In this document: positions 4,596-33,905 of the stretch, piece by piece
Layout of the letters: the number at the start of each line of letters is the position of its first letter
Numbering within the stretch: position 1 is the stretch's first letter
Origin: a virus
Reading direction: 5' to 3' (one strand)
Virus record (IMG/VR): IMGVR_UViG_3300028393_001381
Coordinates: 1 to 40,577 of that record
Length of the DNA: 40,577 nt
Notes under the pieces: model-generated
What the model was told of the DNA's origin: nothing
Databases searched by the model: none
Seen by the model: only the letters and a program-made list of their open reading frames with translations
Translations under genes and position numbers: made by a program

Positions 4596-4624
4596 AGTAT
4601 ACTATCGATTGTAAATACTGTCAA
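4596..4624 (-). promoter_or_regulatory. Sigma-70-type promoter for the tRNA-like gene
   Basis: On the minus strand TTGACA (4619-4624), a 17-bp spacer and TATACT (4596-4601) form a near-consensus promoter. The predicted start of transcription falls at about 4589, the 5' end of the tRNA-like gene. The -10 lies inside the palindrome TAGTATACTA (4596-4605), so a -10-like hexamer is also present on the plus strand facing the island; no good plus-strand -35 is seen. Confidence 0.7.
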
Positions 4625-5583
4625 TGACATTTACAACCATTCCTTTTCAAAATATTGTTGCTTTTGGGCAACAAACGATGCTGGATCGTCCATTATTTAA
4701 CATAAGTTGGATACTTGGCAGATTTTGTAATTATAAATGTAGCTATTGCTGGCCTTACGCCCGTAGTGATAAATTGGATTATCAAACATTAGAAGTTTAT
4801 AAGACTACTATCGATGAAATCAAACGTCAAGCTCGTTTGAACGGATTCACTCAATTTCATTGGAGTTTCAGTGGCGGCGAACCAACTGCTTACAAACAGT
4901 TAACCGATTTGGTAAAACACCTAGATGAAACCAAAAGTTCTTATCAAAGTATCCATATGACTACTAATTTGAGTCCTGGCTCCGCATGGTGGAATACGTG
5001 GTGTCGCAATACAGAATTGTTACAACGCAGAAGTATTACAGCCAGCTTTCACGCAGAGTTTGCCCGAGAGCAAGAGTTTGGTGACAAGTGTTTACAACTA
5101 ATGCATGAGCGTGTTCATGTGACGGTTAATCAAGTGATGGTTCCTGAACTATTTTTTGAAACACTTGAACGATGCGAACGATTTCGTACTCGCGGAATTA
5201 ATGTAACTCTTAAACCACAGAGTAACGATACTGCCACTGCTATTGTAGAAGGTTACACTCCTGAGATGATCGCTATAATGCAAAATGATTTCGAACAGCA
5301 GGAAGGTTTTCAGATTAGACTAACTGACGGAACACAGGATTATTACATCGATCAAGCAGAACGATTCAACGCACTAGGGTTTAATAGTTTTACCAATTGG
5401 ACTTGCAATGCCGGCTATCAAAGTGTTATAATAAAAGGTACTGAAGTTAAACGTGCCTACAGTTGTAAAGAAAACAATATAGGAAATATTCTTACAGGGT
5501 TTGATTTATTCAAAGAACCTAAAATATGTATTACTCCTAGATGTGTTAGTTCAGCAGACTCAAAAGTGCCAAAATGCAAATAG
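4624..5583 (+). CDS. Radical SAM enzyme with C-terminal Cys-rich (SPASM/twitch-like) region
   Basis: Cys35, Cys39 and Cys42 (CNYKCSYC) form the CxxxCxxC site that holds the [4Fe-4S] cluster for reductive cleavage of SAM, and SGGEPT (83-88) contributes to SAM binding. The C-terminus has five more cysteines (261, 281, 302, 307, 318) in a pattern typical of auxiliary-cluster domains, so at least one extra iron-sulfur cluster is likely. This is the first gene of the plus-strand block and starts a few bases after the divergent hub, without a clear ribosome site. The next gene is a 2-oxoglutarate oxygenase. The substrate is unknown; peptide or small-molecule tailoring is the usual role of such enzymes. 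Confidence 0.85.
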   Translation: MTFTTIPFQNIVAFGQQTMLDRPLFNISWILGRFCNYKCSYCWPYARSDKLDYQTLEVYKTTIDEIKRQARLNGFTQFHWSFSGGEPTAYKQLTDLVKHLDETKSSYQSIHMTTNLSPGSAWWNTWCRNTELLQRRSITASFHAEFAREQEFGDKCLQLMHERVHVTVNQVMVPELFFETLERCERFRTRGINVTLKPQSNDTATAIVEGYTPEMIAIMQNDFEQQEGFQIRLTDGTQDYYIDQAERFNALGFNSFTNWTCNAGYQSVIIKGTEVKRAYSCKENNIGNILTGFDLFKEPKICITPRCVSSADSKVPKCK

Positions 5584-5593
5584 GAGTAAGCAA

Positions 5594-6190
5594 ATGCAAG
5601 AACGTGTAATATTAGATTTGCCAAGAATTAGTGTATTCGAAGATGTTGTGCCATTAGATGTATGCGATGCCATAGTTGCCAAATACAAAGATGCAATGAA
5701 TCCCAATGCTGGTATAGAAAGTCGTGAGCAGACTTATGGACAGATTACAGAAGAGGTAGAACAACGTAGTATTAGTTGGGATACTGATCCTGCTGACAGG
5801 CAGTATTTTAAAAGTTTGTTAGCTACTACGGTAGGCATTCCTGAAAGTCATGTAGAAGCTGGCGACATTTATTTTTATGAAACAGGACAATACTTTGGAT
5901 TGCATCACGATTATCCATACAACCCTAAAGTAGTACCTTATTACAGTCTAGGCGGCGACCGCAAGGCAACTGCTATTTTTTGGTTCAACGATGATTATAT
6001 AGGCGGACGCTGTACATGGCCCAGCTTGGGTGTTACTGTAGAACCTAAGAAAGGCGGAGTTATGTATTTCGAATACGACTACCCAGACGAAACTATAAAC
6101 GAGTCAACTATACACGAGTCATTGCCTGTCACTGAAGGACAAAAGTGGATTGCGGCATTTTTTATGAGTAATGGGCCGAGAGTAGAATGA
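5594..6190 (+). CDS. 2OG-Fe(II) oxygenase, prolyl-4-hydroxylase-like
   Basis: The 198-residue protein has the double-stranded beta-helix signature of prolyl-4-hydroxylase-type oxygenases: HHDYPY with His104-x-Asp106, a central GGDRKATAIFWFND segment, distal His174 and Lys184 (TEGQKW) for the 2-oxoglutarate carboxylate. Such enzymes hydroxylate amino-acid side chains or small molecules using Fe(II), O2 and 2-oxoglutarate. The ATG at 5594 is chosen because TAGGAG (5581-5586) gives a good ribosome site; longer in-frame extensions would overlap the upstream gene heavily. It follows the radical SAM gene by 10 nt and overlaps the next by 4 nt. Confidence 0.85.
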   Translation: MQERVILDLPRISVFEDVVPLDVCDAIVAKYKDAMNPNAGIESREQTYGQITEEVEQRSISWDTDPADRQYFKSLLATTVGIPESHVEAGDIYFYETGQYFGLHHDYPYNPKVVPYYSLGGDRKATAIFWFNDDYIGGRCTWPSLGVTVEPKKGGVMYFEYDYPDETINESTIHESLPVTEGQKWIAAFFMSNGPRVE

Positions 6191-6873
6191 ATATAACAAA
6201 CTGGACACCTTTTTACAAATATGATAATGACGGCAAACCTAATTGCATGTCACAGCAAACCTACGAGCCGTTAATAAGCCCCGATGGTAAAATATTTTGT
6301 GCTAATTATGACTGGCAAAATAATTATCAACGTATATGGCAACCCGATCGTGAAGGTTATACACAAGAAGTAGTTGAATATTTTTTTAACAAAGAAGTAG
6401 AATATGCTAGCCGTTTTAAAGACAAACCATATAGCCCAGACATAGTTGATATAGATTATGCTAACAAACGCATATTTTATAATTGGGGCACTAGTTGCAA
6501 TGCACTCTTATACGGCAATAAGGGCGATATGCCTATGCATTGGCGAGAGCAAGTTTTTAATATGCTACTAGACGCATATAATAACGGAGTCTATAAACTT
6601 ACAATGTATCCTCATTGTTTTTATGTTGACTACGGAGATCAGTTGCGTACAATTGATTGGTACGGATGTGTCGAAATAGCAGATCCTTTCATTGAGGCCA
6701 AGTACATGGACGGTATCATACACGATACTGCTCAATCTCGTCTTGATGAAACAGGCGACTTAGTTGACGGCAAATATAATATGGAACTTATGTTTAAAGG
6801 ATCTTTAGGTACGCATGTATTATGGGGAAGTGAAAACATGCAATGGATTTATAGAGAAATATTTAATGGCTAA
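6187..6873 (+). CDS. Kinase-fold-like protein, paralogue of the gene at 18071-18766
   Basis: The order of features resembles a small aminoglycoside/choline-kinase-type fold: an N-terminal beta region (ISPDGKIFCANYDW), a helix with a conserved Glu (NKEVEYASRF), a strand-turn (VDIDYANKRIFYNW), then YKLTMYPHCFYVDYG and RTIDWYG where kinases have the catalytic loop and metal-binding Asp. The usual HxDxxxxN loop is not intact (a Pro-His pair sits there), so it may be a pseudokinase or have altered chemistry. The paralogue on the other strand aligns over its whole length. The assignment is by pattern only. Confidence 0.5.
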   Translation: MNITNWTPFYKYDNDGKPNCMSQQTYEPLISPDGKIFCANYDWQNNYQRIWQPDREGYTQEVVEYFFNKEVEYASRFKDKPYSPDIVDIDYANKRIFYNWGTSCNALLYGNKGDMPMHWREQVFNMLLDAYNNGVYKLTMYPHCFYVDYGDQLRTIDWYGCVEIADPFIEAKYMDGIIHDTAQSRLDETGDLVDGKYNMELMFKGSLGTHVLWGSENMQWIYREIFNG

Positions 6874-7438
6874 ACTAGTAGGATCTACTGAAGGTTTAAT
6901 TAGTTGGGATAAGGTCATTGCTGACATTCAGCACCACATTGGCGATTACAATACTGTTACCACTGTTGTTGATCGTAGTGAAGGACAGCATAAACAAGAC
7001 GATAAAAAGCTATCTCAATATAGAGAAATAATCGATACATGGACTAATGCTGGTTACGATTTATCAAAAATTGAATGGTGGGATTTTTATCCGGGCGAAC
7101 ATTTTGACATAGAAGTACAAAATATATTTGAAAAAATGTTTAACATCATTCCGCGCCGGGTGTTTATTAGTAAAGTACTCCCAGGTACTAATGTTCCTTA
7201 TCACTGGGATGTGGAAGACAAGGAAGATAAATGGTTAGATGAAGGCGGATTGGTCAGATATGTTTGTTTTATAGACGAACCTAAATTTGGTCATGTATTA
7301 ATCTTAGAAGACGAATGTTTTTATAATATAGAAAAACACAGCATATTTAAATGGGATTATTATAGATCCTATCACGCCGGAACTAACTGTGGCACAGAGC
7401 CTTACTATTTGTTTCATTTTTTGGGAACACCTAAATGA
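6866..7438 (+). CDS. Putative 2OG-Fe(II) oxygenase (AspH-like), tandem copy 1
   Basis: The ATG at 6866 overlaps the upstream stop by 8 nt (ATGGCTAA), the coupling used throughout the island, giving 190 residues. His113-x-Asp115 (YHWDVED) and distal His170 (SYHAGTNCG) form the facial triad of a cupin-type oxygenase, and Arg131 could help hold a carboxylate. The His-Ala-x-Asn segment resembles aspartyl/asparaginyl beta-hydroxylases. It shares WWDFYPGEHFD, FGHxxIxED and HAGTNCG with the following gene, so the two arose by tandem duplication. The substrate is unknown. Confidence 0.7.
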   Translation: MAKLVGSTEGLISWDKVIADIQHHIGDYNTVTTVVDRSEGQHKQDDKKLSQYREIIDTWTNAGYDLSKIEWWDFYPGEHFDIEVQNIFEKMFNIIPRRVFISKVLPGTNVPYHWDVEDKEDKWLDEGGLVRYVCFIDEPKFGHVLILEDECFYNIEKHSIFKWDYYRSYHAGTNCGTEPYYLFHFLGTPK

Positions 7439-7950
7439 TAGAGTACATTGGTATATCTCCTTTTAACTGGCAAGAATTAATTGGCGAGTTACAAAATCAA
7501 ATTCCTATAATTGGGCCCAAGCATACACCGGACGATAACATAAAAGGTCTTGACGAAGTTACTTCAATGTGGGATAAGGCTGGATATTACAAGCGCGGCA
7601 CTGTTGGGTGGGATATGTTTTATCCCGGGGAGCATTTTGATTATAAGATTGCAGAACAATTTGCCGAATGGTCAAACTTAAAATCATTTACTAATGCATG
7701 GATTAGTCGTATACATCCTGGGTTCTTTGCTCCAATACACTGGGATGTACAAGACAACGAACCATTACCTGATACTGTACGCTATCATGTACATATGAGC
7801 AAACCACAGTTTGGACATATCTTTATAGCCGAGGATGCTTGTTTATATAATCAACAACAAGGCGCCACTTACAAGTGGACTAGCCGAAAAGCGTGGCATG
7901 CTGGAACTAACTGTGGTATTGCGCCAAAATATATTTTTAACATTTGGTAA
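7435..7950 (+). CDS. Putative 2OG-Fe(II) oxygenase (AspH-like), tandem copy 2
   Basis: This 171-residue paralogue of the preceding gene keeps His102-x-Asp104 (IHWDVQD), distal His155 (AWHAGTNCG) and the FYPGEHFDYK block. Its start overlaps the upstream stop by 4 nt (ATGA). Two adjacent but clearly diverged copies suggest hydroxylation at two positions or on two substrates rather than simple dosage. No signal peptide or membrane segment is present. Confidence 0.7.
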   Translation: MIEYIGISPFNWQELIGELQNQIPIIGPKHTPDDNIKGLDEVTSMWDKAGYYKRGTVGWDMFYPGEHFDYKIAEQFAEWSNLKSFTNAWISRIHPGFFAPIHWDVQDNEPLPDTVRYHVHMSKPQFGHIFIAEDACLYNQQQGATYKWTSRKAWHAGTNCGIAPKYIFNIW

Positions 7951-7954
7951 TCTA

Positions 7955-8959
7955 ATGTACCCTATTACAGATCTTCATATAGAGCTCACTGACAAATGTC
8001 AAGCCAGTTGTCCTATGTGCGGTCGAAATAAGAATGGCGGCGCTGAACGTCCTTTTGTAGGACAGCACGAAATAACGCTGGCAAAGTTTCAACAATGGTT
8101 TAATCCCACGTGGCTAGCCAAGTTAGATAATTTCTATGCGTGTGGCAATTATGGTGATCCTATCATAGCACAAGATTGTTATGAAATATTTGAATATGTC
8201 AGGGAAGTAAATCCTATAACTAGATTATCGATACATACTAATGGTAGCGCACGATCCATGGCATGGTGGACAAAGTTGGCTAAATTGGATATTGAAGTTA
8301 GCTTTGGTATTGACGGATTTGCTGAAAGCCATGTTAAATATAGACGCGGCACAGACTGGCATAAAATTATTGATAACATGACAGCGTTTATACAAGCTGG
8401 CGGAACAGCCATTGTTGATTGTCTAGTGTTCAAACATAACGAACACGAAGTTGAAGAGTTTCAAAACGCTATGGTAGCGTTGGGTGTATCTAAAGTTAAT
8501 TTTAAATATACCAGCAGATTTTATGATATGGATAGTTTTCCAGTTGAAGATAAAACGGGCATCATTGAGTACTCCTTGTATCCTAGTACAGAAAAGAAAG
8601 TGTCATTTATAAAACTTGAAGATATTAAACGTGATATCAATGTGTGGAAAGAACAAGTTGTAAAGGCAACTATTAAACCCAAGTGTGTACAAAAGAATGA
8701 AATTTATGTAGATACTCGGGGTAATGTATTTCCTTGCTGTTGGGTAGGTTTTGATTGGTTGGAAACTCCACTAGAAGAAACACTAACAGTTCATACGTTA
8801 CGAAATCAAATGATACAAAATACTAAAGATAAATTTAGTACGGTGGGAATTTTTAATCTTAGTAAAAATATTATTGAAGATTTAACATGGCGTGATTTAG
8901 AAGGGTTATGGCACACTGAGGATAAACCCTGGGTGTGTGTTAAAAATTGTAATGAATAA
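7955..8959 (+). CDS. Radical SAM enzyme with SPASM-like C-terminus
   Basis: The ATG at 7955 lies 4 nt after the upstream stop and gives 334 residues; longer starts would bury the frame in the oxygenase gene. Cys15, Cys19 and Cys22 (CQASCPMC) bind the radical SAM cluster. The common GGEP motif is absent; ACGNYGDP occupies that place. The C-terminus has cysteines at 244, 261, 262, 328 and 332 around VDTRGNVFPCCW, a typical SPASM layout as in peptide-modifying enzymes. It overlaps the next radical SAM gene by 8 nt, so the two are probably made together. Confidence 0.85.
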   Translation: MYPITDLHIELTDKCQASCPMCGRNKNGGAERPFVGQHEITLAKFQQWFNPTWLAKLDNFYACGNYGDPIIAQDCYEIFEYVREVNPITRLSIHTNGSARSMAWWTKLAKLDIEVSFGIDGFAESHVKYRRGTDWHKIIDNMTAFIQAGGTAIVDCLVFKHNEHEVEEFQNAMVALGVSKVNFKYTSRFYDMDSFPVEDKTGIIEYSLYPSTEKKVSFIKLEDIKRDINVWKEQVVKATIKPKCVQKNEIYVDTRGNVFPCCWVGFDWLETPLEETLTVHTLRNQMIQNTKDKFSTVGIFNLSKNIIEDLTWRDLEGLWHTEDKPWVCVKNCNE

Positions 8960-10346
8960 AATTAAACAATGGCAAGATAAAATAGAAATACTAGCAGGAA
9001 GTAAGACTTTCTGCGTACTGCCATGGATACACTTTGCCACTCGTCCTAACGGCGACATGCGATTATGCTGTAATGCTAACAGTAGCGGAGCAGGTACTGA
9101 TCATGAAATTGGTCTAGTAAAAAATGAAACAGGTCGACCCGCAAACTTTGGTCGTGAAACTCCTATGAGTGCTTGGAATAATGAGTACATGAAAGATGTA
9201 CGTTTGACTATGTTGGAAGGAAAAATTCCGGCTAGTTGTGCTAAGTGCCATAAAGAAGAATTTAACGGGGTGGCCAGCAAGCGCATTTGGGAAACCGGTA
9301 CATGGGTTGAAGATGGTATCGATTTGCCTGAGCTTATAAAACAAACTGAAGAAGATGGTACAGTTCCTGAGACGCTAGTTTATCTAGACTTACGTTTAGG
9401 ACATACTTGTAACTTAAAATGTATTATGTGTAGCCCGCATGACAGTAGCATGTGGGTGGCGGATCACAAGAAAGTATATCCTATATTTCAAGCTAAAGAA
9501 CTCAAAGAACAGATGGCATGGAATAGCGATACGTTTGACAATTACTGGTATGAGAATCCAGACTTCTGGAAAGAGATGTATGCACAGATTCCTAATCTTA
9601 AACAAGTGTACTTTGCTGGCGGAGAACCTTTGCTTATCAAGGAGCATAAATTGTTCCTTGAAGAAATTATTAGACAAGGTTACGCAGACAAGATCCTTGT
9701 ACGCTACAACACAAATGGGCTATTGGTAAATGACGAAATTATTGAACTATGGAAAAAATTCAAAAAAGTTAAAGTGGGTTTTAGTATTGATGCTATAGGT
9801 GACCGTAATTACTATATACGCTATCCTAGTGATTGGGCTATTATCGAACGTAATCTTCACAAGCTAGATAGCACTCCTGACAACATACAAGTTAGTATTG
9901 CCACAGCTATACAGATACTAAACATCAAACACTTGCCTGAATTGGCCAAGTGGAAGATACAGCAGAATTTTAAGAAAGTAAACTTTGAAAATATCACAGG
10001 CGGAATACAAGCTGGCGGCGGGATCGTTAATATGCATTTGTTGTATATTCCAACATTCTTAAGTATTAGATGTTTGCCAGAATATGACAAAGAACAAGTG
10101 CGTAAGAGCTTTGCAGATCTTGCTACATGGCTGTATGCTAACTATAGACAAGATGAAGATTTTTGGAAACAAAATCCTTATGGTTGGAAACGTTGGCAAG
10201 CAATATTAGACTTTATGGATGCTGAAGATCATACCGCACAATTGCCTGCATTTGTAGAATATATTGAAAAGATGGAAACTATACGTGGTACAGATTTTAT
10301 TAAGACGTTCCCTGAGCTAGCACATTTGCTACAGTCCCAAGTCTAA
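8952..10346 (+). CDS. Twitch-domain radical SAM enzyme (464 aa)
   Basis: An N-terminal Cys-rich segment (Cys21, Cys39-Cys40, Cys96, Cys99; FCVLPWIHF, RLCCNA, CAKC) looks like a twitch/SPASM-type auxiliary-cluster domain placed before the core. The core CxxxCxxC is Cys153, Cys157 and Cys160 (CNLKCIMC), and AGGEP (222-226) follows. The architecture recurs at 12323, 21758 and 26500 and marks one subfamily. The ATG at 8952 overlaps the upstream stop by 8 nt. The 3' end overlaps the convergent gene on the minus strand by 18 nt and no terminator is seen there. Confidence 0.85.
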   Translation: MNKIKQWQDKIEILAGSKTFCVLPWIHFATRPNGDMRLCCNANSSGAGTDHEIGLVKNETGRPANFGRETPMSAWNNEYMKDVRLTMLEGKIPASCAKCHKEEFNGVASKRIWETGTWVEDGIDLPELIKQTEEDGTVPETLVYLDLRLGHTCNLKCIMCSPHDSSMWVADHKKVYPIFQAKELKEQMAWNSDTFDNYWYENPDFWKEMYAQIPNLKQVYFAGGEPLLIKEHKLFLEEIIRQGYADKILVRYNTNGLLVNDEIIELWKKFKKVKVGFSIDAIGDRNYYIRYPSDWAIIERNLHKLDSTPDNIQVSIATAIQILNIKHLPELAKWKIQQNFKKVNFENITGGIQAGGGIVNMHLLYIPTFLSIRCLPEYDKEQVRKSFADLATWLYANYRQDEDFWKQNPYGWKRWQAILDFMDAEDHTAQLPAFVEYIEKMETIRGTDFIKTFPELAHLLQSQV

Positions 10347-11438
10347 TATAGGAATAATAGTTGTAGCAGTCCATAAGTCTTTAAAGTCGGCAAACTCTTT
10401 TGCTTTAGGTACACACATACCGCATCCACAGCGTAGGTTAGGACATACGATAGGGGCAATTGTTTCTTGCCCTAGCATAGCGTATGTTTTATGTAGTATG
10501 CTAGTGGTGTCTTTTAAGTTACCAATAGGGCCGCGACCTTCGTGTGTTGCTTGGCACGTTTGATGATGATACACATTTCCGTTTTGTTGTTCAATATGTA
10601 AGAAGTACCAGTTAACAGTACAGTACCAATCTTTAAACCAGTTGTCTACTAATTTAACATCTTGCCATACACCGTCTACTTTGCCTGTAGTACAACGTCC
10701 ACCGCAACAAGCACGACCAACGTTGGTGCCTTCTTGTGAATTACTAGCAGGACGTTCACGACCCATAAATTTAAAGAACCAGTCTTGCTGTTCTGTAGTA
10801 TATTCATGGCTAGTTCTGCGATTAGTACCATCGGCATCTTGGAACCACCCTTTACGTACTGTAACTCCGTCACCAACAGGAACAGGATTTACCATTACAC
10901 CTTTTTCTTTAAGCATATTGCATAAATTAGTTGCTTCGTCAAAGTGATCACAATGTAACATTACGTTTGCTTGAACACGCAAGCCTCGTTCTTTCAATGC
11001 TAGAATATTAGCAACTGTACGTGTCTTTAAATGTTCTTCAGCTTCAGCATGCCAGCTAATAGTAACATAAGAAAAATGTTCAGCAATACGTTCTGTAAAT
11101 GTCGGGCCCCATGTACCGTTAGTTGTAAGTGCTAGATGGAATCCGTCAAACTGTTTAATGTATTCAAGTAATGGCCAAAATGCAGGATTAGCAGTTGGCT
11201 CGCCACCTGTAAAGTCCATACTAGTGTGTAATTTGTCAGTACGTTTAGAGTTGTACAAGTTTACATATTCTCGTATAAAATCAAATGTTTGTTTTAGTTC
11301 TTCAAACTCTGGCATCTTGCTAGTATTGTCGTGGCGAGTACTTTCGCAGTATGTACAATCTAAATTACATCTGCGAAGCATTTCCCATGTAACCATCATG
11401 GGCTCGGGATTACGTAAGTTAATTGCTGTTGTTTGCAT
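10329..11438 (-). CDS. Radical SAM enzyme (369 aa)
   Basis: Cys24, Cys28 and Cys31 (CNLDCTYC) and TGGEPT (77-82) define a radical SAM core. It is followed by a Cys-rich C-terminal half containing CCGGRC and CPNLRCGCGMC, which probably carries auxiliary clusters. The residues just after the cluster (ESTRHDNTS) match those of the neighbouring gene at 11419 (PASIHDNSS), so the two are sister enzymes of one subfamily. It is the last gene of a five-gene minus-strand run that begins at 14866. The start overlaps the upstream gene by 20 nt. The substrate is not known. Confidence 0.85.
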   Translation of the reverse strand: MQTTAINLRNPEPMMVTWEMLRRCNLDCTYCESTRHDNTSKMPEFEELKQTFDFIREYVNLYNSKRTDKLHTSMDFTGGEPTANPAFWPLLEYIKQFDGFHLALTTNGTWGPTFTERIAEHFSYVTISWHAEAEEHLKTRTVANILALKERGLRVQANVMLHCDHFDEATNLCNMLKEKGVMVNPVPVGDGVTVRKGWFQDADGTNRRTSHEYTTEQQDWFFKFMGRERPASNSQEGTNVGRACCGGRCTTGKVDGVWQDVKLVDNWFKDWYCTVNWYFLHIEQQNGNVYHHQTCQATHEGRGPIGNLKDTTSILHKTYAMLGQETIAPIVCPNLRCGCGMCVPKAKEFADFKDLWTATTIIPILDLGL

Positions 11439-14866: not shown

Positions 14867-14877
14867 GATATATTTAA

Positions 14878-14892
14878 GCTAGTTATACTAGC
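14878..14892. promoter_or_regulatory. Divergent hub inverted repeat
   Basis: GCTAGT-TAT-ACTAGC is a perfect 6-bp inverted repeat midway between the divergent genes starting at 14866 and 14906. A short symmetric element between two back-to-back operons fits an operator or a shared promoter element. Comparable short repeats sit in the other divergent gaps of the island. Confidence 0.5.
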
Positions 14893-14893
14893 A

Positions 14894-14901
14894 CATAAAT
14901 A
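14894..14901 (+). promoter_or_regulatory. T4-late-like box CATAAATA
   Basis: CATAAATA differs by one base from the T4 late promoter TATAAATA. It lies only 4 nt before the ATG at 14906, so if it is a promoter the transcript would be almost leaderless. The upstream gap is too short for a normal ribosome site. It could be a chance match in AT-rich DNA. Confidence 0.3.
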
Positions 14902-14905
14902 TTTC

Positions 14906-19748: not shown

Positions 19749-19765
19749 TACTTATCAGCTAAGTA
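19749..19765. promoter_or_regulatory. Divergent hub inverted repeat TACTTA-N5-TAAGTA
   Basis: TACTTA (19749-19754) and TAAGTA (19760-19765) form a perfect inverted repeat a few bases before the plus-strand start at 19771 and within the 46-nt divergent gap. The sequence CAGCTAAGTA in it recurs at 29886-29895 in another divergent hub, so it is probably a shared control element. Confidence 0.5.
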
Positions 19766-19770
19766 ATTGC

Positions 19771-20586: not shown

Positions 20587-20587
20587 C

Positions 20588-26497: not shown

Positions 26498-26499
26498 AA

Positions 26500-27993
26500 T
26501 TAAAACTCTTTTTTAGTAATTCTTAAAACAAACAGTATCCAATCTTCTTTAGAATTGTTTGTTGCTGAATGATGTAAATCTCCGTCAAACATGACTATTT
26601 GATTATTATTAAAATAAAATTGTTCATCATCTACAGTTAAAAACGCATTAGTAGGAACACATACATTGATTAATACATTGTACATGCCTTTATCAATATG
26701 GTCTTCAACATACGAATTCGGGCCAATAAAGAATACTCCTGCATAATGTAATCCCGGCAGTCCTTCTACTGTATTTTTAAAATCTTTAAATTCAGGAATA
26801 GTGTCTGTATTAACTTGAATATTAAAGTGACCAGAATCTTGCGTATATTCAATATCTTCGCTAAGAACACCAGTATTTGTTTCGTGATATACTTTATTAT
26901 CTTTACTGCTTTTAGAATACCACCATACCTCTTTACCATTCGTATCCTTAGCCATACTTCTAAGACGTGCTCTAATACTTCGCCAGTCTAAATTATTAAG
27001 AGATTCTACAGCAAGAGTTTTTACAGTATCAATTTGATCAGTATATGGATAACTACGATAGTCTAGCATAGTTGGATTTTTTAACTTGACATGCTCTAGC
27101 ATATATTTTTTATTAGGAATATCAAGCTGTTCTATCATGCTGATAAATTCTGTTTTATTGAACATATTTACTATATCTAATTTTTTAGGATATGTTAAAA
27201 CATTAGTGGTCCATTCTAAATTAATTGACTTAATGAATTCTGCTAATTTAGGCAATCCTTGCCAATTATTCAAATGTATAACTGTATGTATTACTAGTTC
27301 AAAATTTAAATTCTTTATTTGCTCTATAAATTTTATAATGTCGATCCATTTGCTTCCGCTACGGACTTTGTCGTTTAATTCTCCATAGCCATCTATGCTA
27401 AGGATAAACTTAACATGTTTGCATTCGTTTAACAATTCAATTGTTTCTTTGTCTAATAAAAATGTTCCATTAGTGTTGTATGTTACATCTAATAATGTAC
27501 GATTTGCTATTTTTAAAATTCTTAAATGTCTAGTGGTCATTAAAGGCTCACCACCTAAAAATAGTACACGATTAACGGTAGCAGGCAATGTTGTAAGATC
27601 TTCACTGCTCCTTACAATTTGAGTTATGTTAGACTTCTTTGCCCATGCACTGCTAAACTCGTGCCAGCATCCGTCACAAGTTAAATTACAAATATTATCT
27701 AAGCCTACTTCTAAAAAGTTTAAGTTTATTGTTTCAGTTGTATATTCTTCATTAAATTGCTGACGCAAACTTTTCTTGCCTAAACTTTCTTCGTAGTAAC
27801 ATTTTTGACAATTGGGATTGTAAACACCGTTACTGCTTTCTTCTCGAAGTTTTTTATATTCGGTGGTATTGAGTATGCTTACAACATTGCCTGTAAACTT
27901 AGTCACGGGTGTTTTATAACGACAGCAAGCAAACACGTTGTTGTCGTTTCTTATGTTAGTATGATGCCAAAAAGCTGAACACTTAGTTTCCAT
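26500..27993 (-). CDS. Fusion: twitch radical SAM enzyme with C-terminal 2OG-Fe(II) oxygenase-like domain
   Basis: The first 340 or so residues are a twitch radical SAM enzyme: N-terminal Cys5, Cys23-24, Cys62 and Cys65, core Cys102, Cys106 and Cys109 (CNLTCDGC), LGGEP (146-150) and SIDGYG. From about residue 360 a second domain begins with EVWWYSK. It has His432-x-Asp434 (EDHIDKG), distal His474/475 (GDLHHSATN) and Arg491 (FVLRI), the iron and 2-oxoglutarate site of AspH-like oxygenases. One chain would thus carry oxygen-sensitive radical chemistry and O2-dependent hydroxylation. No stop or frameshift separates them. Confidence 0.8.
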   Translation of the reverse strand: METKCSAFWHHTNIRNDNNVFACCRYKTPVTKFTGNVVSILNTTEYKKLREESSNGVYNPNCQKCYYEESLGKKSLRQQFNEEYTTETINLNFLEVGLDNICNLTCDGCWHEFSSAWAKKSNITQIVRSSEDLTTLPATVNRVLFLGGEPLMTTRHLRILKIANRTLLDVTYNTNGTFLLDKETIELLNECKHVKFILSIDGYGELNDKVRSGSKWIDIIKFIEQIKNLNFELVIHTVIHLNNWQGLPKLAEFIKSINLEWTTNVLTYPKKLDIVNMFNKTEFISMIEQLDIPNKKYMLEHVKLKNPTMLDYRSYPYTDQIDTVKTLAVESLNNLDWRSIRARLRSMAKDTNGKEVWWYSKSSKDNKVYHETNTGVLSEDIEYTQDSGHFNIQVNTDTIPEFKDFKNTVEGLPGLHYAGVFFIGPNSYVEDHIDKGMYNVLINVCVPTNAFLTVDDEQFYFNNNQIVMFDGDLHHSATNNSKEDWILFVLRITKKEF

Positions 27994-29017
27994 AAGCTCT
28001 CACTAAATGCCCAAACCCTTTTTGATTAAACCATTTATCAATTTCAATTTGTTCAATATTAAAAGTATCTCGTATGTAGTTTACAATTATACTATTTTCG
28101 TTAGCCAATGTAAAGAACAAACGGTAGTTATGTTCGATATCTTGTTCGATCGCTTCTTTGTGTTTGTGGCAATTTTCTAAAAAGTATGCGGTATTAGTTA
28201 CAATAGCATCGAGCCTATCTTCTTCTTTAGTCAAATAAGCATAATCTTTAATTAGCATGTATTCTTCAAAAGTTTTAAATCCTAGTTCTTTAATATAGTC
28301 AAACATTTCTGGATTAGATGCATGTAAGAACGGATGCCGCTGTACAAATGCTCTGTATGTTTTCTCTGTTAAATATTTGGAACTAATATCGCTAATATCA
28401 ATTCCTTCGGATATGATACTAAGACTTGTATTTCTAAACACTTTGGGATCGATCCATGCTGTATCATTAGTCCATATATTAGCAGATGGCTTTGTTCCGT
28501 AGTGTTTAGAAGTTTCATATACAGTATCTATGCTACGACATAGCGTTAATAGTTCTGCATAGTCAAAAGTGTAATTGCGGCACCATTCTTCTTGTTGCGC
28601 AGTCCACGGTTTAAAGAAAGTCCATTCTGCATTATCAAGCAAGCCTGCTAATCTAAACTTGTTAAGCAAACCAATACGATTGGGTCTGCTAGGTACTCCG
28701 CCTAAGAATAAAAACTTAGATGAACAATTCCATTTATGTGTAATTCTGTCTTTATAACTATTATATGTTGTGTAAAGGTTAAAATTAAAAGGTATTGTCT
28801 TAGGATAGGTAGTATTATCTACCGCTAGGCCTGGAATGAGTATTAAATCAATTTCCTCGCCAATGCGCTCAATTAATTCACCCGGATTATTATGTATAAA
28901 TCCGTCGGCTAGCATCAGGCCCAGAACAGATGTTGCATCTCCTATTTCACTTTTTAGGAGATTATATTTTTCATCTTCTGGAATCCAAAACGTTTCTAAA
29001 TTAACAATTTTATACAT
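27983..29017 (-). CDS. Glycosyltransferase-like protein (GT10/exostosin-like C-terminal signature)
   Basis: The C-terminal half contains LSIISEGIDIS, then YLTEKTYRAFVQRHPFLH and LGFKTFEEY. This is the order of motifs in fucosyltransferase-like (GT10) and related GT-B enzymes: a strand ending in Ser-Glu, Thr-Glu-Lys, a His-Pro, and Gly-Phe-x-Thr-Phe. The Glu-Lys pair is expected to bind the sugar nucleotide. The N-terminal half is less typical. It would add a sugar to an acceptor made or modified by the surrounding enzymes. Its start overlaps the aminotransferase-like gene by 8 nt. Confidence 0.6.
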   Translation of the reverse strand: MYKIVNLETFWIPEDEKYNLLKSEIGDATSVLGLMLADGFIHNNPGELIERIGEEIDLILIPGLAVDNTTYPKTIPFNFNLYTTYNSYKDRITHKWNCSSKFLFLGGVPSRPNRIGLLNKFRLAGLLDNAEWTFFKPWTAQQEEWCRNYTFDYAELLTLCRSIDTVYETSKHYGTKPSANIWTNDTAWIDPKVFRNTSLSIISEGIDISDISSKYLTEKTYRAFVQRHPFLHASNPEMFDYIKELGFKTFEEYMLIKDYAYLTKEEDRLDAIVTNTAYFLENCHKHKEAIEQDIEHNYRLFFTLANENSIIVNYIRDTFNIEQIEIDKWFNQKGFGHLVRAYGN

Positions 29018-29861
29018 TAAGATGCTTATGCAGGCCTAGTCTGTTTGTAGTGCCGCCACGGTTATATTCCGGGTATTGGTTTAATTTATCTATACCAAAC
29101 AACACTGTGTTACTTGGTACAATGCCTAAATTATTACATAATTCTATTTGTTTTTCTAAGTACTTGTTTACCATGTAGTCTGGAGAATATTGTTCTATCA
29201 TTTTTAATCCTAATGCGGCACCTATACGATTTGTATATTCTATTTTGTGTAGCATTAGTAATGCGTCATCGTCATCCAATTTAGTTAACCTCATACCTAC
29301 ACGAGCATAAGCTAAAGGAAATGTTTTTGATAAACTAAACGTAATATCTGTAATACAGTCGTGTGCAAAGTTAAAATCTATATTAGAACACACTCCAAAG
29401 TAAACACAATCTACAAGTACAGGAATTCCTAATGCCGTGCATGTTTCTAATATTAGTTGCATTTGTATATGTTCATTACCTGTATCGGAGAACGGTAAGC
29501 TAATAACTACAGCATCGTTTTTTTCTAGGGCATCGTCTTCTATAAACTTCCAATCCCAATTGCGCCATGCTATCTGATGGTATACATACTCGCCTTTAAA
29601 ACAACGAAATCTACGCTTATTGTGTTTCATGTAAAACTTGTCAAAAGCTTCGGTTGTGCCGTTAGCGTATACCGCAAACGGAAAATTCTCCAATCCTATT
29701 ATTTGATTAAGTTTAGTAGATTTGATCCATTCTAAATACCTGTTGCAAAACGTATCGGAGTCAACTTGTGATAAAACCGGCAAGGTGCTCAGCGTTTGGG
29801 TATCCATTATTGCAAAGGATCCTCCAAACAGTAAAGAACGTTTATCATTAGGTGCGGTCAT
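29010..29861 (-). CDS. PLP-dependent aminotransferase-like protein
   Basis: The ATG at 29861 (MTAPNDKRSLLFGG) is chosen over a TTG eight codons upstream that would lie in the hub repeat. PVLVDCVYFGV has the Asp that pairs with the pyridine nitrogen plus a Tyr, and TFSLSKTFP holds the Lys that would form the Schiff base, followed by RVGMR, the phosphate and helix segment of class I aminotransferases. VYANGTTEAF is the cofactor-binding loop. At about 283 residues it is short for the family and lacks part of the N- and C-terminal small domain. It heads the long minus-strand block. Confidence 0.6.
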   Translation of the reverse strand: MTAPNDKRSLLFGGSFAIMDTQTLSTLPVLSQVDSDTFCNRYLEWIKSTKLNQIIGLENFPFAVYANGTTEAFDKFYMKHNKRRFRCFKGEYVYHQIAWRNWDWKFIEDDALEKNDAVVISLPFSDTGNEHIQMQLILETCTALGIPVLVDCVYFGVCSNIDFNFAHDCITDITFSLSKTFPLAYARVGMRLTKLDDDDALLMLHKIEYTNRIGAALGLKMIEQYSPDYMVNKYLEKQIELCNNLGIVPSNTVLFGIDKLNQYPEYNRGGTTNRLGLHKHLNV

Positions 29862-29866
29862 ATTAT

Positions 29867-29895
29867 TACTTATTACATAAATCAACAGCTAAGTA
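29867..29895. promoter_or_regulatory. Divergent hub inverted repeat TACTTA ... TAAGTA
   Basis: TACTTA (29867-29872) and TAAGTA (29890-29895) are the same arms as in the hub at 19749-19765, here separated by 17 nt that include CATAAAT, a T4-late-like box. The element fills the gap between the divergent starts at 29861 and 29901. Sharing of both arms and of CAGCTAAGTA between two distant hubs is the evidence for a control element. Confidence 0.5.
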
Positions 29896-29900
29896 GTATT

Positions 29901-30644
29901 ATGATAATGCCTTTAGAGTTCTATAACCAAAATAAAAATTGTACTTGGGAATTAGAAACAATTCCAGCTAACTTGCTAACTAACATAGAAAAAGCACGTT
30001 GGATTTTAAACGAAGCCAAATTTGGTTGGATTGAATTAGATTTAAAAATCGATACTGCTGGGTGGCAATTAGAAGCCCAGCAAGTCCAGCCTTATTTTGT
30101 AGCACACCGTGAAGAACAAAATGACGGCTGGAATAGCTGTTGTATCCATGGTATCGATGTAGATAAAACTGGAGCTTGGACTAATTATGGCTATACTGAT
30201 GAAAAGCAAGTCCCTTATAATTGGACAGACTTGTCACATAAAACTCCTATGATTAAACGTTTTTGGCAAGATATATTTCCATCAGATCATTATAGAAGAA
30301 TTAGATTTATGGAGTTAGAATCCAAGTCTGCTATTACTCCGCACAGTGATATGCCTGGCAAACTTCCTGGTGAAGCAGGTATGGATATGTTAGACTTTGG
30401 GGTTCCTGTAAATATAGCAGTTGTCCATCCAGAAGATTGCTACATGGTATTAGAAGGATACGGAATTGTTCCTTTTAAACAAGGCAAGGCGTTTATTGTA
30501 AACATACGTAATTATCACAGCGTAATAAATTTTAGTAATCAACATAGAATACATGTTATTGGACACAGTTATGGGTATGGTAGTAAACGATCAGAGTTTG
30601 CCAATTTAATTGTAAGAAGTTATGAGAAGATGAAAAATGTTTAA
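29901..30644 (+). CDS. Putative 2OG-Fe(II) oxygenase (AspH-like), 247 aa
   Basis: His148-x-Asp150 (ITPHSDMPG), distal His206 (RNYHSVIN) and Arg216 (HRIHVIGH) match the aspartyl/asparaginyl beta-hydroxylase core, with IAVVHPEDCYMVLEG as the intervening strands. About 130 N-terminal residues precede the core and are specific to this copy. Two possible ATGs (29901 and 29907) exist with no clear ribosome site. It overlaps the ANL gene by 8 nt and may act on the acid that the ANL enzyme activates. Confidence 0.7.
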   Translation: MIMPLEFYNQNKNCTWELETIPANLLTNIEKARWILNEAKFGWIELDLKIDTAGWQLEAQQVQPYFVAHREEQNDGWNSCCIHGIDVDKTGAWTNYGYTDEKQVPYNWTDLSHKTPMIKRFWQDIFPSDHYRRIRFMELESKSAITPHSDMPGKLPGEAGMDMLDFGVPVNIAVVHPEDCYMVLEGYGIVPFKQGKAFIVNIRNYHSVINFSNQHRIHVIGHSYGYGSKRSEFANLIVRSYEKMKNV

Positions 30645-32079
30645 CACTATTACTAGAGACTTTATCAGTAACAATTTTGTCTTTACTGATATACGCACGG
30701 GCAACAGTTATGATAAGAATGGTATTATAGAACGTATTGATTATTGGAAATATGTTTTAAAATATAAGTTTTATGCAAAACAACAAGAGTCTATTCTTAT
30801 TGGCATACAAGACCTTGGCATTGATTATTTTGCCATCATCATTGCTTCAGCAGAATTAAGCCTTAAAATTGTAGTAGTAGATTACAACAGAACAGACAAA
30901 TTTAAAGATTTAGAATACAACGATCCTAAAACCATACTGTTAGCACCTATTGATATATTTTTACATGATATGTCTTCTAGTATGCTAGCTTCTAAATTGG
31001 GTGCAATGGCCAAATTCAATTTCTTTATAAAACATTCTAATAGAACATACTGTACATTAGATATTAATAATTTTGCAATAGACAAAGATAATTTACCAAC
31101 AGATCGTCCAACTACCTCTGATATATTGTTTAAGGTAACTAGCAGTGGGACAACTGATGTTCCTAAAGTAATTGAACATACACACGAGTTTATACATGCA
31201 ATATCCACTAGTAACTCAAAGTTTTATAAAGGCACAGCAGTTCATGTTAATAATCTTAACCACGGTGCAAGTGCGTCAGTTACCCTGTTACCTCTATTAA
31301 CATCTGATACTGTAGATAGACATTTATTTTTTAGTTGTGACGAATCCGGAGCGATTGTTGATTTGGTTCGCGCACTAACACCTTACAAAGATGATATTGG
31401 ATATATGTCATTTCCGTATCCATTTCTTATTGATAAATTTATTGAATTTAGTAAAGAAAAAAATATTACATGGCCTAATCTAGATTTAATCACATTATCT
31501 TACATTTTAGAAAATGCTAAACATGCAGTAAGAGATGGCGTGTTTAATAGTATTACAAGTATTTTTGGATCTAATGAAACGTTAGGGCCTTTGTTTGTCA
31601 ACACAGCAACAAAGGATAAATGGGATATAGATTCTAGATACTATTCAATAACTAATGATTTTTATACTATTAAATTATCTACCGAAGGCAAAATTACAGT
31701 GACAATTCCTGTGTATAATAAAGATGTTGAAACTAATGACTACTTTGATAAAGATGGTGAATACTTTGTACACAAAGGTCGCTCTGATATGTTTAGAATT
31801 AATGGTGAAACAATTAACATGGGAACTATCAACGATTTAAACAAAAAAGACCCAAGAGTGTATATAGTAGTTGATACACTAAATCATTGTTTATATCTTG
31901 CATGTTGGGAAGAGTTAAGTATGGAAGAAATACGCACTATTAAAGAACAAATAGAAAGCAATTTTGAAAGAATTAAAATTACTAAGATACTACACTTGGA
32001 CAAATTGAGTTTTTATTATGCTATTAAGATAGACAACGAGCTCCTCCGTGAACACTTTAGGACATACAATGTTTCGTAA
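30637..32079 (+). CDS. ANL-superfamily adenylate-forming enzyme
   Basis: TSSGTTDVPK (168-177) is the phosphate-binding loop, FGSNETLG the A5 motif, and DYFDKDGEYF followed by GRSDMFRINGE the A7/A8 motifs with the ribose-binding Asp and hinge region. These enzymes activate a carboxylic acid as an acyl-AMP and pass it to CoA, a carrier protein or an amine. At 480 residues it is a single adenylation unit with no carrier or condensation domain attached. The N-terminal third is divergent. No carrier protein gene is seen nearby, so CoA or a free amine is a likely acceptor. Confidence 0.8.
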   Translation: MFNTITRDFISNNFVFTDIRTGNSYDKNGIIERIDYWKYVLKYKFYAKQQESILIGIQDLGIDYFAIIIASAELSLKIVVVDYNRTDKFKDLEYNDPKTILLAPIDIFLHDMSSSMLASKLGAMAKFNFFIKHSNRTYCTLDINNFAIDKDNLPTDRPTTSDILFKVTSSGTTDVPKVIEHTHEFIHAISTSNSKFYKGTAVHVNNLNHGASASVTLLPLLTSDTVDRHLFFSCDESGAIVDLVRALTPYKDDIGYMSFPYPFLIDKFIEFSKEKNITWPNLDLITLSYILENAKHAVRDGVFNSITSIFGSNETLGPLFVNTATKDKWDIDSRYYSITNDFYTIKLSTEGKITVTIPVYNKDVETNDYFDKDGEYFVHKGRSDMFRINGETINMGTINDLNKKDPRVYIVVDTLNHCLYLACWEELSMEEIRTIKEQIESNFERIKITKILHLDKLSFYYAIKIDNELLREHFRTYNVS

Positions 32080-32308
32080 ACATTTAGACACTAGTAAAGT
32101 TACATATTTAGAACATCTTACATGGGCTGTTGTTGCCGGCTTTCGCTTGATCTATGCTGGAATAACAAGTATAATACATGGAGTAGTTCCTACATTATTT
32201 GATGGTTCTGCTCCCAAACAAGTTATTGACATATATCATAATCATTTAGAAGACCATCCTAATCCAAAATATAAAGATATGATTGATAAAGCTAAGGAAA
32301 ATAAATGA
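32069..32308 (+). CDS. DUF6356-like small membrane protein
   Basis: The ATG at 32069 overlaps the ANL stop by 11 nt and gives 79 residues. The pattern MFRKHLDTSKVTYLEHL followed by a hydrophobic helix (WAVVAGFRLIYAGITSII) and HGVVPTLF matches the DUF6356 family, small proteins often beside capsule or surface-polysaccharide genes. One membrane-associated helix is likely. It overlaps the sugar-dehydrogenase gene by 4 nt, which links it to glycan assembly by position. Confidence 0.65.
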   Translation: MFRKHLDTSKVTYLEHLTWAVVAGFRLIYAGITSIIHGVVPTLFDGSAPKQVIDIYHNHLEDHPNPKYKDMIDKAKENK

Positions 32309-33045
32309 AATTAGGAATAGCAGGCTATGGTATTGTGGGCAAAGCTACACACAAAGGGTTGCTTAATAACTTATCAGTAATTATTCACGATACCACCAGA
32401 GGAACAACTATTGAAGATTTATATGTATGTAGCTATGTTTTCTTTTGTATTCCGACAGACACAGATGCCAGCATACAATTATTAATGGAAGAAATTAGAC
32501 TTCTTAAAGTAGTTAACCCAAATTGTAAAATAGTCATTCGCAGTACAGTACCAGTCGGAACTTGTCGAATGATTGAAAAGTTTATCTGTGATAAAATTTA
32601 TTACTTACCTGAGTTTTTGCGAGAGCGAGTTTGGGAAACAGATTGTTTAAATCGTCCAATTATAGTTGGAAGTGATCATCAAACAATTCCTCCTTGGTTA
32701 TCTATTCAAGACTGTATATTTTGTACATTAGAGGAAGCAGAAGTTATTAAAATGTTAAGCAATAACATGGCCGCGGCCCGTGTTGTATTTGCCAACCATA
32801 TGTATGAATTAAGTAAAGCAGTTGGCGCAGATTACAGCAACGTTTTAAATGCATATCTGGTGGTTAACCATGATCAAAATTATTTAGAAGTAACAGAAGA
32901 CATGCGGGCTTTTGGCGGTAAGTGTTTGCCCAAAGACTTAGATTTCCTTATCAACACGTTTGCAAAACTAAACATTCCACAAACATATTTTACAGCAATG
33001 AAAGAAGACAATCAGTTATGGCCAGTAACCGTAAGAAAATCCTAA
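32305..33045 (+). CDS. Short UDP-glucose/GDP-mannose dehydrogenase-like protein
   Basis: GIAGYGIVGKA (4-14) is the NAD-binding loop, IRSTVPVGT (78-86) the family hallmark, and FGGKCLPKDLD (203-213) carries the catalytic Cys207 that forms the thiohemiacetal. Family members oxidise a sugar-nucleotide primary alcohol to a uronic acid. With 246 residues it keeps the Rossmann and central helical domains but lacks the C-terminal nucleotide-sugar-binding domain of the usual 390-450-residue enzymes. The last residues run into the epimerase start (28-nt overlap). Activity on a small or carrier-bound sugar is possible. Confidence 0.75.
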   Translation: MKLGIAGYGIVGKATHKGLLNNLSVIIHDTTRGTTIEDLYVCSYVFFCIPTDTDASIQLLMEEIRLLKVVNPNCKIVIRSTVPVGTCRMIEKFICDKIYYLPEFLRERVWETDCLNRPIIVGSDHQTIPPWLSIQDCIFCTLEEAEVIKMLSNNMAAARVVFANHMYELSKAVGADYSNVLNAYLVVNHDQNYLEVTEDMRAFGGKCLPKDLDFLINTFAKLNIPQTYFTAMKEDNQLWPVTVRKS

Positions 33046-33905
33046 TCACAGGTGCCAGTGGCTTAATTGGCCGAGAAATGTGCAACCAATTAAGCTCGTT
33101 GCATGATGTGACAGCCGTTGATAATAACCAAAGATTTGTAGGCTATCAGCCACCCGGTTGTAACTTTATCAAATCTAACCTAGTTGAATATTTACAACAC
33201 GCTAATAATAACTTTGATATTGTATATCATCTAGCCGCTACTAATGGAACAAAATATTTTTATAGTCAACCTAATGATGTATTACGCAATAATGTAACGT
33301 TAGATTTAGAAATGTTTAGATTTGTAGAATCTAATCCTGCATGTAAACTTGTGTACGCTAGTAGCAGTGAAGTAATGGCGGGCGCAACTGTATTTCCTAC
33401 TCCCGAACTAACCGATATTGCTATTAGCAATATACATAATCCACGTTGGAGTTACATGTTACCCAAGGTACTTGCAGAAAATTATCTATTCAATAGCAAT
33501 ATTGATTTTTTAATCATTCGATTCTTTAATGTGTATAGTGAGCATACAGGATCAGGACATTTTTTAAAAGACATCGTTGATAAAATACAAAACAAAAATT
33601 TTGAATTAATTGGCTCTGATGAAACTCGTTCTTTTTGTTATGTAAGTGATGCGGTAGACGCTGTTATCAAAATTTCAGATTCTAGTAGATGTGTAGTAAA
33701 TGTAGGTAGTGATGAAGAACTACGAATTATTGATGCGGCTAATATCATTGCTAATGCACTAGGCGAGAGTAATGTAATATGGACAACTAAGCCTGGGCTA
33801 ACTGGTAGTGCTAAAAATCGTAGACCGGATATCACAGAACTGAAAAGGTTGTTGCCAACCTTTTCACCCAAATCATTTAAAGAAGTATTAACTAAACTTT
33901 ATTGA
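33018..33905 (+). CDS. NAD-dependent nucleotide-sugar epimerase/dehydratase
   Basis: The ATG at 33018 (MASNRKKILI) gives 295 residues. ITGASGLIG (10-18) is the GxxGxxG loop of extended SDRs, YHLAATNG follows, YASSSEVMAG supplies the catalytic Ser/Thr region and YMLPK the Tyr-x-x-x-Lys pair. RFFNVYSEH and a GSDETRSFCYVSDAV segment are typical of UDP-sugar epimerases and dehydratases. It is the last plus-strand gene of the island and its stop overlaps the tail-fibre-like gene by 7 nt. It probably makes a sugar for surface or virion glycosylation. Confidence 0.8.
   Translation: MASNRKKILITGASGLIGREMCNQLSSLHDVTAVDNNQRFVGYQPPGCNFIKSNLVEYLQHANNNFDIVYHLAATNGTKYFYSQPNDVLRNNVTLDLEMFRFVESNPACKLVYASSSEVMAGATVFPTPELTDIAISNIHNPRWSYMLPKVLAENYLFNSNIDFLIIRFFNVYSEHTGSGHFLKDIVDKIQNKNFELIGSDETRSFCYVSDAVDAVIKISDSSRCVVNVGSDEELRIIDAANIIANALGESNVIWTTKPGLTGSAKNRRPDITELKRLLPTFSPKSFKEVLTKLY

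Follow-up and report, generated by a model that had tools for sequence, protein, structure and literature searches.

A conserved island of radical SAM and 2-oxoglutarate oxygenase genes in T4-related phages, with a possible role in glycan synthesis

Introduction

What use would a phage have for ten radical S-adenosylmethionine (SAM) enzymes and nine sites of the 2-oxoglutarate (2OG) oxygenase type, set together in one stretch of its genome? This question is raised by the 40,577-base IMG/VR virus record IMGVR_UViG_3300028393_001381, which we analyzed at its full length (the window) and which is probably a fragment of a larger genome. A preliminary description had read the genes at 4624-33905 (the island) as one complete tailoring pathway. 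We found that the island is one conserved, selected and co-regulated unit with intact active sites. Our preferred reading, to which we give a probability of about one half, is that it encodes a late-expressed pathway for an unusual hydroxylated, guanidinylated glycan on the virion or the host surface. Genes are named here by their first coordinate in the window.

Results

The island is conserved and selected as a unit

Thirteen other phage contigs span the island, which covers 21-32 kb in them and contains 23-40 genes, with 8-12 CxxxCxxC proteins each; the gene set, order, strand, boundaries and flanks are largely kept. A 91-kb contig (G001) contains homologs of nearly all island genes, mostly at 40-78% identity, in a rearranged order and with the same flanking phage genes. 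The amidinotransferase family was found in 65 contigs and the family of radical SAM protein 8937 in 98, and 44 contigs have 3-19 radical SAM matches each. We viewed 145 related loci, each to a distance of at most 10 kb from its marker in both directions; 123 of them have two or more of 15 core genes, and 39 have eight or more. Core genes are 4624, 6848, 7955, 8952, 11419, 12323, 14906, 17527, 18071, 19771, 22890 and 25442. Optional ones are 13560, 18756, 20588, 21758, 26500 and the sub-cassette 30637-33905, and 16605 is also gained or lost between relatives.

Every island gene is under purifying selection, with dN/dS of 0.03-0.24 against the nearest relative where dS could be estimated, values that are rough, as dS is frequently above 1. 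A chimeric contig is ruled out by flanks that are conserved in three relatives (G002, G008 and G009). An Mtd_N fibre gene lies directly beside the island in the window and 0-2 genes away in eight contigs. The gene set thus recurs in other phages with intact catalytic residues, and comparison of island content between relatives shows a core that is kept and optional parts that vary. Of the pathway first proposed, one conserved unit, co-regulated as judged from a shared promoter element, therefore stands; a complete pathway with a single product is a proposal only, and parts of the island come and go.

The features are listed below, with better-placed open reading frame (ORF) starts for 7955, 8952, 19771 and the gene of the pyridoxal phosphate (PLP) enzyme (29861).

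4612-4617, plus: promoter element TAAATA, 6 bp before the ATG of 4624
4624-5583, plus: radical SAM with SPASM-type C-terminal Cys; core; also in Bdellovibrionota
5594-6190, plus: 2OG-Fe(II) oxygenase (PF13640)
6187-6873, plus: conserved protein, paralog of 18071, weak protein-kinase-like profile match
6848-7438, plus: 2OG-type oxygenase, homolog of 21271, invariant HWD...H
7435-7950, plus: 2OG-type oxygenase, invariant HWD...H
7955-8959, plus: radical SAM (PF04055); core; also in Bdellovibrionota
8952-10346, plus: N_Twi_rSAM (NF033640); core; Bdellovibrionota homologs 44-50% identical
10329-11438, minus: radical SAM (PF04055), Cys-rich C-terminus
11419-12330, minus: radical SAM (PF04055)
12323-13600, minus: N_Twi_rSAM (NF033640); core
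13560-14174, minus: possible SGNH-type protein (unconfirmed), in few islands only
14153-14866, minus: PP-loop ATPase, QueC/TilS-like, invariant SGGADS and four Cys
14871-14876, minus: promoter element TAAATA, 4 bp before the ATG of 14153-14866
14896-14901, plus: promoter element TAAATA, 4 bp before the ATG of 14906
14906-15589, plus: 2OG oxygenase, PF05118-like, below Pfam cut-off
15582-16025, plus: short-chain dehydrogenase-like
16022-16612, plus: short-chain dehydrogenase/epimerase-like, paralog of 15582
16605-17540, plus: radical SAM, below Pfam cut-off, motif invariant
17527-18135, minus: conserved core protein, no family
18071-18766, minus: conserved core protein, paralog of 6187, weak kinase-like profile match
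18756-19724, minus: methyltransferase, PrmA/Methyltransf_3-like; optional, in 1 of 13 other islands
19760-19765, plus: promoter element TAAGTA, 5 bp before the ATG of 19771
19771-20586, plus: core protein of no known family, 2OG-type invariant HRD...H...R
20588-21274, plus: possible SGNH-type protein (unconfirmed)
21271-21765, plus: 2OG oxygenase (PF05118)
21758-22900, plus: radical SAM (PF04055) with N-terminal Cys domain
22890-24038, minus: predicted GT-A domain (~9-230) and SAM-methyltransferase fold (~223-375), from a model
24019-24963, minus: radical SAM (PF04055)
24960-25463, minus: 2OG oxygenase, PF05118-like; partner of the amidinotransferase in cyanophage S-SCSM2R too
25442-26497, minus: amidinotransferase, closest solved relative StrB1
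26500-27993, minus: radical SAM-PF05118 2OG oxygenase fusion; split neighbours in three relatives
27983-29017, minus: predicted GT-B glycosyltransferase, from a model
29010-29861, minus: PLP-dependent enzyme, invariant SLSK lysine
29867-29872, minus: promoter element TAAGTA, 5 bp before the ATG at 29861
29890-29895, plus: promoter element TAAGTA, 5 bp before the ATG of 29901
29901-30644, plus: 2OG oxygenase (PF05118)
30637-32079, plus: ANL-type adenylating enzyme (weak match); optional sub-cassette
32048-32308, plus: DUF6356 (Pfam)
32305-33045, plus: UDP-glucose/GDP-mannose dehydrogenase family (Pfam)
33015-33905, plus: NAD-dependent sugar epimerase/dehydratase (Pfam)
33899-35221, minus: Mtd_N-type tail-fibre-like gene, island flank

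Radical SAM and oxygenase sites are intact

All ten radical SAM proteins of the island were found where the preliminary description had placed them, and each has a conserved CxxxCxxC motif. PF04055 scored above the Pfam cut-off in nine of them (4624, 7835 with its better start at 7955, 8937 with its better start at 8952, and 21758 on the plus strand; 10329, 11419, 12323, 24019 and 26500 on the minus strand). The tenth, 16605 on the plus strand, reached 24.2 bits against a cut-off of 29.5, with its motif invariant. The three Cys of the motif are 100% conserved in nine ortholog families (alignments of 9-14 sequences) and 86% conserved in the alignment of 26500, a set that also includes one stand-alone oxygenase. 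Additional SPASM/twitch-type Cys are conserved in the ortholog alignments, and the full NF033640 (N_Twi_rSAM) profile gave 407 bits for 8937 and 317 bits for 12323 (curated cut-off 170). Protein 26500 is a fusion of a radical SAM domain and a PF05118 2OG oxygenase, the halves of which are separate nearby genes in three relatives (G004, G011 and G014); the fusion ties the two chemistries together.

The nine oxygenase sites comprise one PF13640 match (5594), five PF05118-like domains (21271, the C-terminal domain of 26500 and 29901 above the cut-off, 14906 and 24960 below it), two homologs of 21271 detected by BLAST (6848 and 7435, for which Pfam gave no match), and 19771. The HxD motif and the later His are invariant among orthologs at eight of the nine sites originally proposed, and the ninth, the fused C-terminal domain of 26500, is variable between relatives. 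Together with the invariant radical SAM Cys, this pattern would not be expected by chance. Protein 19771 is a putative 2OG-type enzyme from its invariant HRD...H...R, and it had no match in Pfam or in solved-structure profiles. Solved-structure profile searches with the PF05118-like set, 22890 and 27983 gave nothing significant.

We also observed, in divergent islands (L203, L204, L205 and L206, from G043 and G044), proteins of 490-545 residues with an N-terminal domain ahead of CxxxCxxC. These proteins resemble B12-binding radical SAM proteins, and some adjoin SGNH-like proteins.

Island operons share a promoter element

The T4 late promoter octamer TATAAATA has no occurrence on either strand of the window, against 6.1 expected by shuffling, and its absence led to the search that identified TAA[AG]TA. 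Upstream of island operon leaders, TAAATA was counted 45 times (1.7 expected) and TAAGTA 28 times (1.6 expected). Of 102 island leaders, 59 have the element no more than 30 bp from the start; the same holds for 8 of 377 internal genes of the island and for 35 of 192 leaders that lie outside it. A gap of 4-6 bp to the start codon was found in 48 of 102 island leaders and 6 of 192 outside leaders (Fisher p 5e-20, from counts that are not independent because the contigs are related). The window leaders with the element are 4624, 14153, 14906, 19771, 29010 (from the ATG at 29861) and 29901, and the sole leader without it is 18756, a gene present in one of the 13 other islands. Transcripts from T4 late promoters start about 5-6 bp downstream of the octamer. 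Because TAA[AG]TA stands 4-6 bp before the ATG, island mRNAs would, by analogy, probably start at or near the ATG and be leaderless. The shared element implies that the operons may form one late-type regulon and be co-regulated.

Amidinotransferase, glycosyltransferase folds and other enzymes

Sequence comparison strongly confirms 25442 as a StrB1/AGAT-type amidinotransferase. Its best solved relative is the inosamine-phosphate amidinotransferase StrB1 of the streptomycin pathway (1bwd, E 3e-107, residues 3-351), which ranks ahead of HsvA, SxtG and human AGAT, and the catalytic Cys of GGxHC (C335) is invariant. The AlphaFold model of 27983 (pLDDT 82.7) has a GT-B fold (best Z 12.3, root-mean-square deviation (rmsd) 4.2, 261 residues); the top matches are all GT-B enzymes, and T4 alpha- and beta-glucosyltransferase are among the best. 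The model of 22890 (pLDDT 89.4) has an N-terminal GT-A fold at about residues 9-230, closest to the PBCV-1 capsid glycosyltransferase 2p72 (Z 10.6, rmsd 3.6, 165 residues) and also similar to lysyl hydroxylase LH3 (Z 10.1), followed at about residues 223-375 by a SAM-methyltransferase fold (Z 9.0, NodS). The alignment of 22890 contains no invariant DxD, and a GH(I/V)xDR region is conserved in its place. We predict that 27983 is a GT-B glycosyltransferase and that 22890 joins a GT-A domain to a SAM-methyltransferase fold, a shared fold being no proof of activity.

Among the remaining proteins, 14153 is a QueC/TilS-like PP-loop ATPase in which SGGADS and four Cys are invariant, and 29010 is a PLP-dependent enzyme with an invariant lysine in SLSK. 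Pfam supports the sugar dehydrogenase, the epimerase, DUF6356, the PP-loop/QueC-like protein, the methyltransferase and, weakly, the short-chain dehydrogenases (SDRs). The accessory enzymes originally listed were therefore upheld in part: the amidinotransferase strongly, along with the PLP, sugar and methyltransferase enzymes, and SDR and ANL (30637) by weak matches, with the SGNH assignments of 13560 and 20588 confirmed by no profile library. Proteins 6187 and 18071 are paralogs, and a kinase reading of the pair was set aside because the protein-kinase profile match is weak (E 0.0014).

The island belongs to a T4-related phage lineage

Related records that bear the island reach 364 kb, and a T4-type Gp23 capsid protein was found in 8 of 24 tested related contigs. 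The capsid of one of these contigs is 74% identical to that of Sinorhizobium phage Phosso, 70% to Vibrio phage 2.275.O and 67% to PA5oct; the 40,577 bases of the window contain no capsid gene. From these capsid sequences and the size of the records, the island is therefore placed in T4-related, mostly large phages. A nucleotide search of 50,697 phage records gave zero matches, as did tblastn with 10329, 19771 and 4624 against the same records, and PHROGs gave a near-empty result. The phage collection searched yielded no isolate that carries the entire island.

Two further features of this lineage lie outside the island. A DUF2828/DUF7788 protein in the right flank (38569-39981) is 84-94% conserved in related phages. 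On the minus strand at 4468-4592 is a tRNA-like RNA with a CCA end, a T arm, a long variable arm and an anticodon arm with a very variable loop, which was reported by neither ARAGORN nor Rfam. Nine contigs have this RNA on or close to the left edge of the island (examples are L186:557-683, L188:8681-8798, L203:4177-4294, L181:2968-3075 and L172:8261-8382, with others too), and compensatory changes occur in 8 of 26 predicted pairs.

Related gene clusters occur in Bdellovibrionota

A genome scan with the 8937 family gave matches almost only in Bdellovibrionota, in a search seeded with exact peptides and thus biased to close relatives. In this group, relatives of 8937, 4624, 7955 and 3006 recur together, often with PLP, PP-loop, PF05118 and family 2 glycosyltransferase (GT2) genes, and GT2 genes adjoin some of the clusters. 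N_Twi_rSAM scored over the cut-off in 30 of 114 sampled Bdellovibrionota genomes and 0 of 14 control genomes. Nine genomes (G045-G053, mostly Bdellovibrionota metagenome-assembled genomes, MAGs) have 10-33 matches each, an expansion that appears undescribed in the papers searched. In one Bdellovibrionia MAG (G047, contig C1, about 745-775 kb, L235-L236), about 15 radical SAM genes are packed into 30 kb of the chromosome, and this cluster also encodes an amidinotransferase, a PLP enzyme, a protein resembling 22890 and two that are PF05118-like. An amidinotransferase lies within 1.5 kb of N_Twi_rSAM in four sampled genomes.

In the 8937 tree, all phage sequences (plus L214) form one clade (100/99) beside one mostly Bdellovibrionota clade (100/99). 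We infer common ancestry of the N_Twi radical SAM core with Bdellovibrionota, and the two separate supported clades suggest that the exchange is old. For Bdellovibrionota as hosts of these phages, the data are suggestive only. L214 (PUNK01000001, a contig labelled as from a Thermoplasmata archaeon) is 3.5 kb long and bears three island genes; it probably comes from a phage and was misbinned into the MAG of an archaeon. Thermoplasmata were rejected as a cellular source, as this contig falls inside the phage clade.

Discussion

Radical SAM-rich modules, with an amidinotransferase, are already known in T4-related phages; the scale of the island, its pairing with oxygenases, its regulation and its bacterial counterpart are new. 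The claim that the gene content goes far beyond usual phage auxiliary genes was therefore overstated, as large radical SAM sets were reported in 2010, 2017 and 2020. Timms et al. (2010, PMC2853527) described 11 and 12 radical SAM proteins in Campylobacter phages CP220 and CPt10 and termed the cluster an interchangeable module. In CP220, five radical SAM genes surround an amidinotransferase, followed by two NDP-sugar-transferase folds. Like these T4-related phages, the window has several radical SAM genes and an amidinotransferase in one cluster, with Gp23 in eight related contigs. The Campylobacter phage clusters differ in having 10-12 genes rather than about 35 and no reported 2OG set (CP220 gp085 has no oxygenase family match), and their proteins are distant from ours (amidinotransferase 29% identical, radical SAM proteins 24-34% over parts). 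According to passages of Nishimura et al. (2017, PMC5332604), the 183-kb T4-like marine genome TARA_ERS488813_N000010 has 12 radical SAM genes, which those passages treat as Fe-S proteins only, with no island or pathway. Zaragoza-Solas et al. (2020, PMC7029224) described the host recognition cluster of pelagimyophages and cyanomyophages, a plastic region with tail fibres, glycosyltransferases and radical SAM cassettes. Both are tail-fibre-linked plastic regions in T4-like phages, but the host recognition cluster is non-syntenic and glycosyltransferase-rich, whereas the island has a fixed-order radical SAM/2OG core and its own promoter element.

Synechococcus phage S-SCSM2R (PQ898602) has a radical SAM protein, a glycosyltransferase, a 2OG enzyme and an 'inosamine amidinotransferase' in consecutive order. 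Its amidinotransferase is 37% identical to 25442 and the 2OG partner is homologous to 24960; unlike the island, it has one radical SAM protein, five annotated glycosyltransferases and a DegT-type aminotransferase. Vibrio phages KVP40 and K566 carry fewer radical SAM genes, in KVP40 along with a QueC-like gene. The N_Twi_rSAM clusters of Bdellovibrionota MAGs share the 8937-4624-7955-3006 set with the island but are chromosomal, some with flanking GT2 genes. In the open-licence literature we found no paper on the 2OG/radical SAM island, its promoter element or its bacterial counterpart, and publications on hypervariable phage clusters and Bdellovibrio radical SAM proteins gave no earlier description of the island.

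Several features lead us to favor a glycan: the sugar-nucleotide enzymes, the StrB1-type amidinotransferase, the pair of glycosyltransferase folds and the Mtd_N neighbour, as well as the glycosyltransferases found around homologs in S-SCSM2R, CP220 and Bdellovibrionota. In the proposed pathway, the UDP-sugar dehydrogenase, epimerase, SDRs and PLP aminotransferase would make an amino-sugar or cyclitol precursor, and the StrB1-like amidinotransferase would convert an amine to a guanidine. PF05118-type 2OG oxygenases would hydroxylate the same scaffold, on which the radical SAM enzymes would perform C-H chemistry (epimerization, deoxygenation or C-C bond formation), and the two glycosyltransferase-fold proteins would transfer the finished residue. 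From the late timing and the neighbouring fibre gene, the acceptor would be the virion (its fibre or capsid) or the host envelope, and the role may be adsorption, shielding or exclusion of competing phages. A bolder form, which we offer only tentatively, is that this widespread late regulon of about 35 genes with leaderless transcripts makes a new class of guanidinylated, poly-hydroxylated, radical-tailored glycoconjugate, of common descent with a counterpart in predatory Bdellovibrionota, with oxygen-dependent 2OG and oxygen-sensitive radical SAM enzymes working on one scaffold.

Several observations weigh against the glycan pathway. No PF00535 glycosyltransferase was found in the island regions, with hits only far from the island in the largest records, and the pathway therefore leans on analogy and a pair of predicted folds. 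Nor was a polymerase, flippase or ligase seen. Most island radical SAM proteins match no family of known chemistry, and radical SAM/SPASM enzymes of known function act mostly on peptides. The fibre gene is not adjacent in G004, G018, G031, G043 and G044, some of which are cut at that end. Finally, the late timing of TAA[AG]TA is read from its resemblance to T4 late promoters.

The preference of known radical SAM/SPASM enzymes for peptides bears on a pathway like those of ribosomally synthesized and post-translationally modified peptides (RiPPs), in which SPASM/twitch radical SAM and 2OG enzymes would modify a ribosomal peptide or one of the phage's own proteins, for example the fibre, and the amidinotransferase would act on a side-chain amine. 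It would fit the conserved SPASM-type auxiliary Cys, the fact that several proteins weakly resemble NCBIfam RiPP maturases, PF05118 as an Asp/Asn hydroxylase family and the adjacent fibre gene. We consider it unlikely, as no NCBIfam maturase match exceeds its curated cut-off, two glycosyltransferase folds and sugar-nucleotide enzymes are present, and no precursor gene was seen; the genes overlap or abut and leave scarcely any space for one in the ORF list, although it could lie elsewhere. Quite unlikely, in our view, is a diffusible guanidino-aminocyclitol or alkaloid-like molecule used against competitors or for host reprogramming. StrB1 and SxtG are among the closest solved relatives of the amidinotransferase, and the PLP, ANL, SDR and oxygenase enzymes, like the size of the cluster, recall natural-product clusters, but no exporter or resistance gene was recognized, late expression in a lytic cycle would leave little time, and the CP220 and S-SCSM2R homologs neighbour glycosyltransferases.

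The similarity of 27983 to T4 alpha- and beta-glucosyltransferase and the QueC-like PP-loop protein also raise the option that the 2OG, radical SAM, PP-loop/QueC-like and GT-B proteins hypermodify bases of the phage DNA. This seems improbable: TGT (PF01702) and a thymidylate-synthase-family hydroxymethylase (PF00303) are absent in 12 related contigs, some of them fragments, late-type promoters act after DNA synthesis has started, the oxygenases are PF05118-type and not TET/JBP-type, and counterparts lie on bacterial chromosomes. It is very improbable that the island is just a plastic region in which unrelated auxiliary genes have collected, serving no joint pathway. Although 18756, 13560, 30637-33905 and 21758 come and go, this idea is already contradicted by the conserved order, strand and operon boundaries, the promoter element common to the operons, the gene fusion, and the same gene pairs in unrelated phages and in bacteria.

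As a biosynthetic pathway, the island would rank with the largest that phages are seen to carry, and its degree of conservation suggests that it matters in nature. It is a concrete starting point for finding new radical SAM and 2OG chemistry, and could account for the dozen radical SAM genes noted in T4-related phages since 2010 without explanation. The shared promoter element is an immediate handle for transcription studies, and the island suggests a testable connection between phage tail fibres, surface sugars and predatory bacteria.

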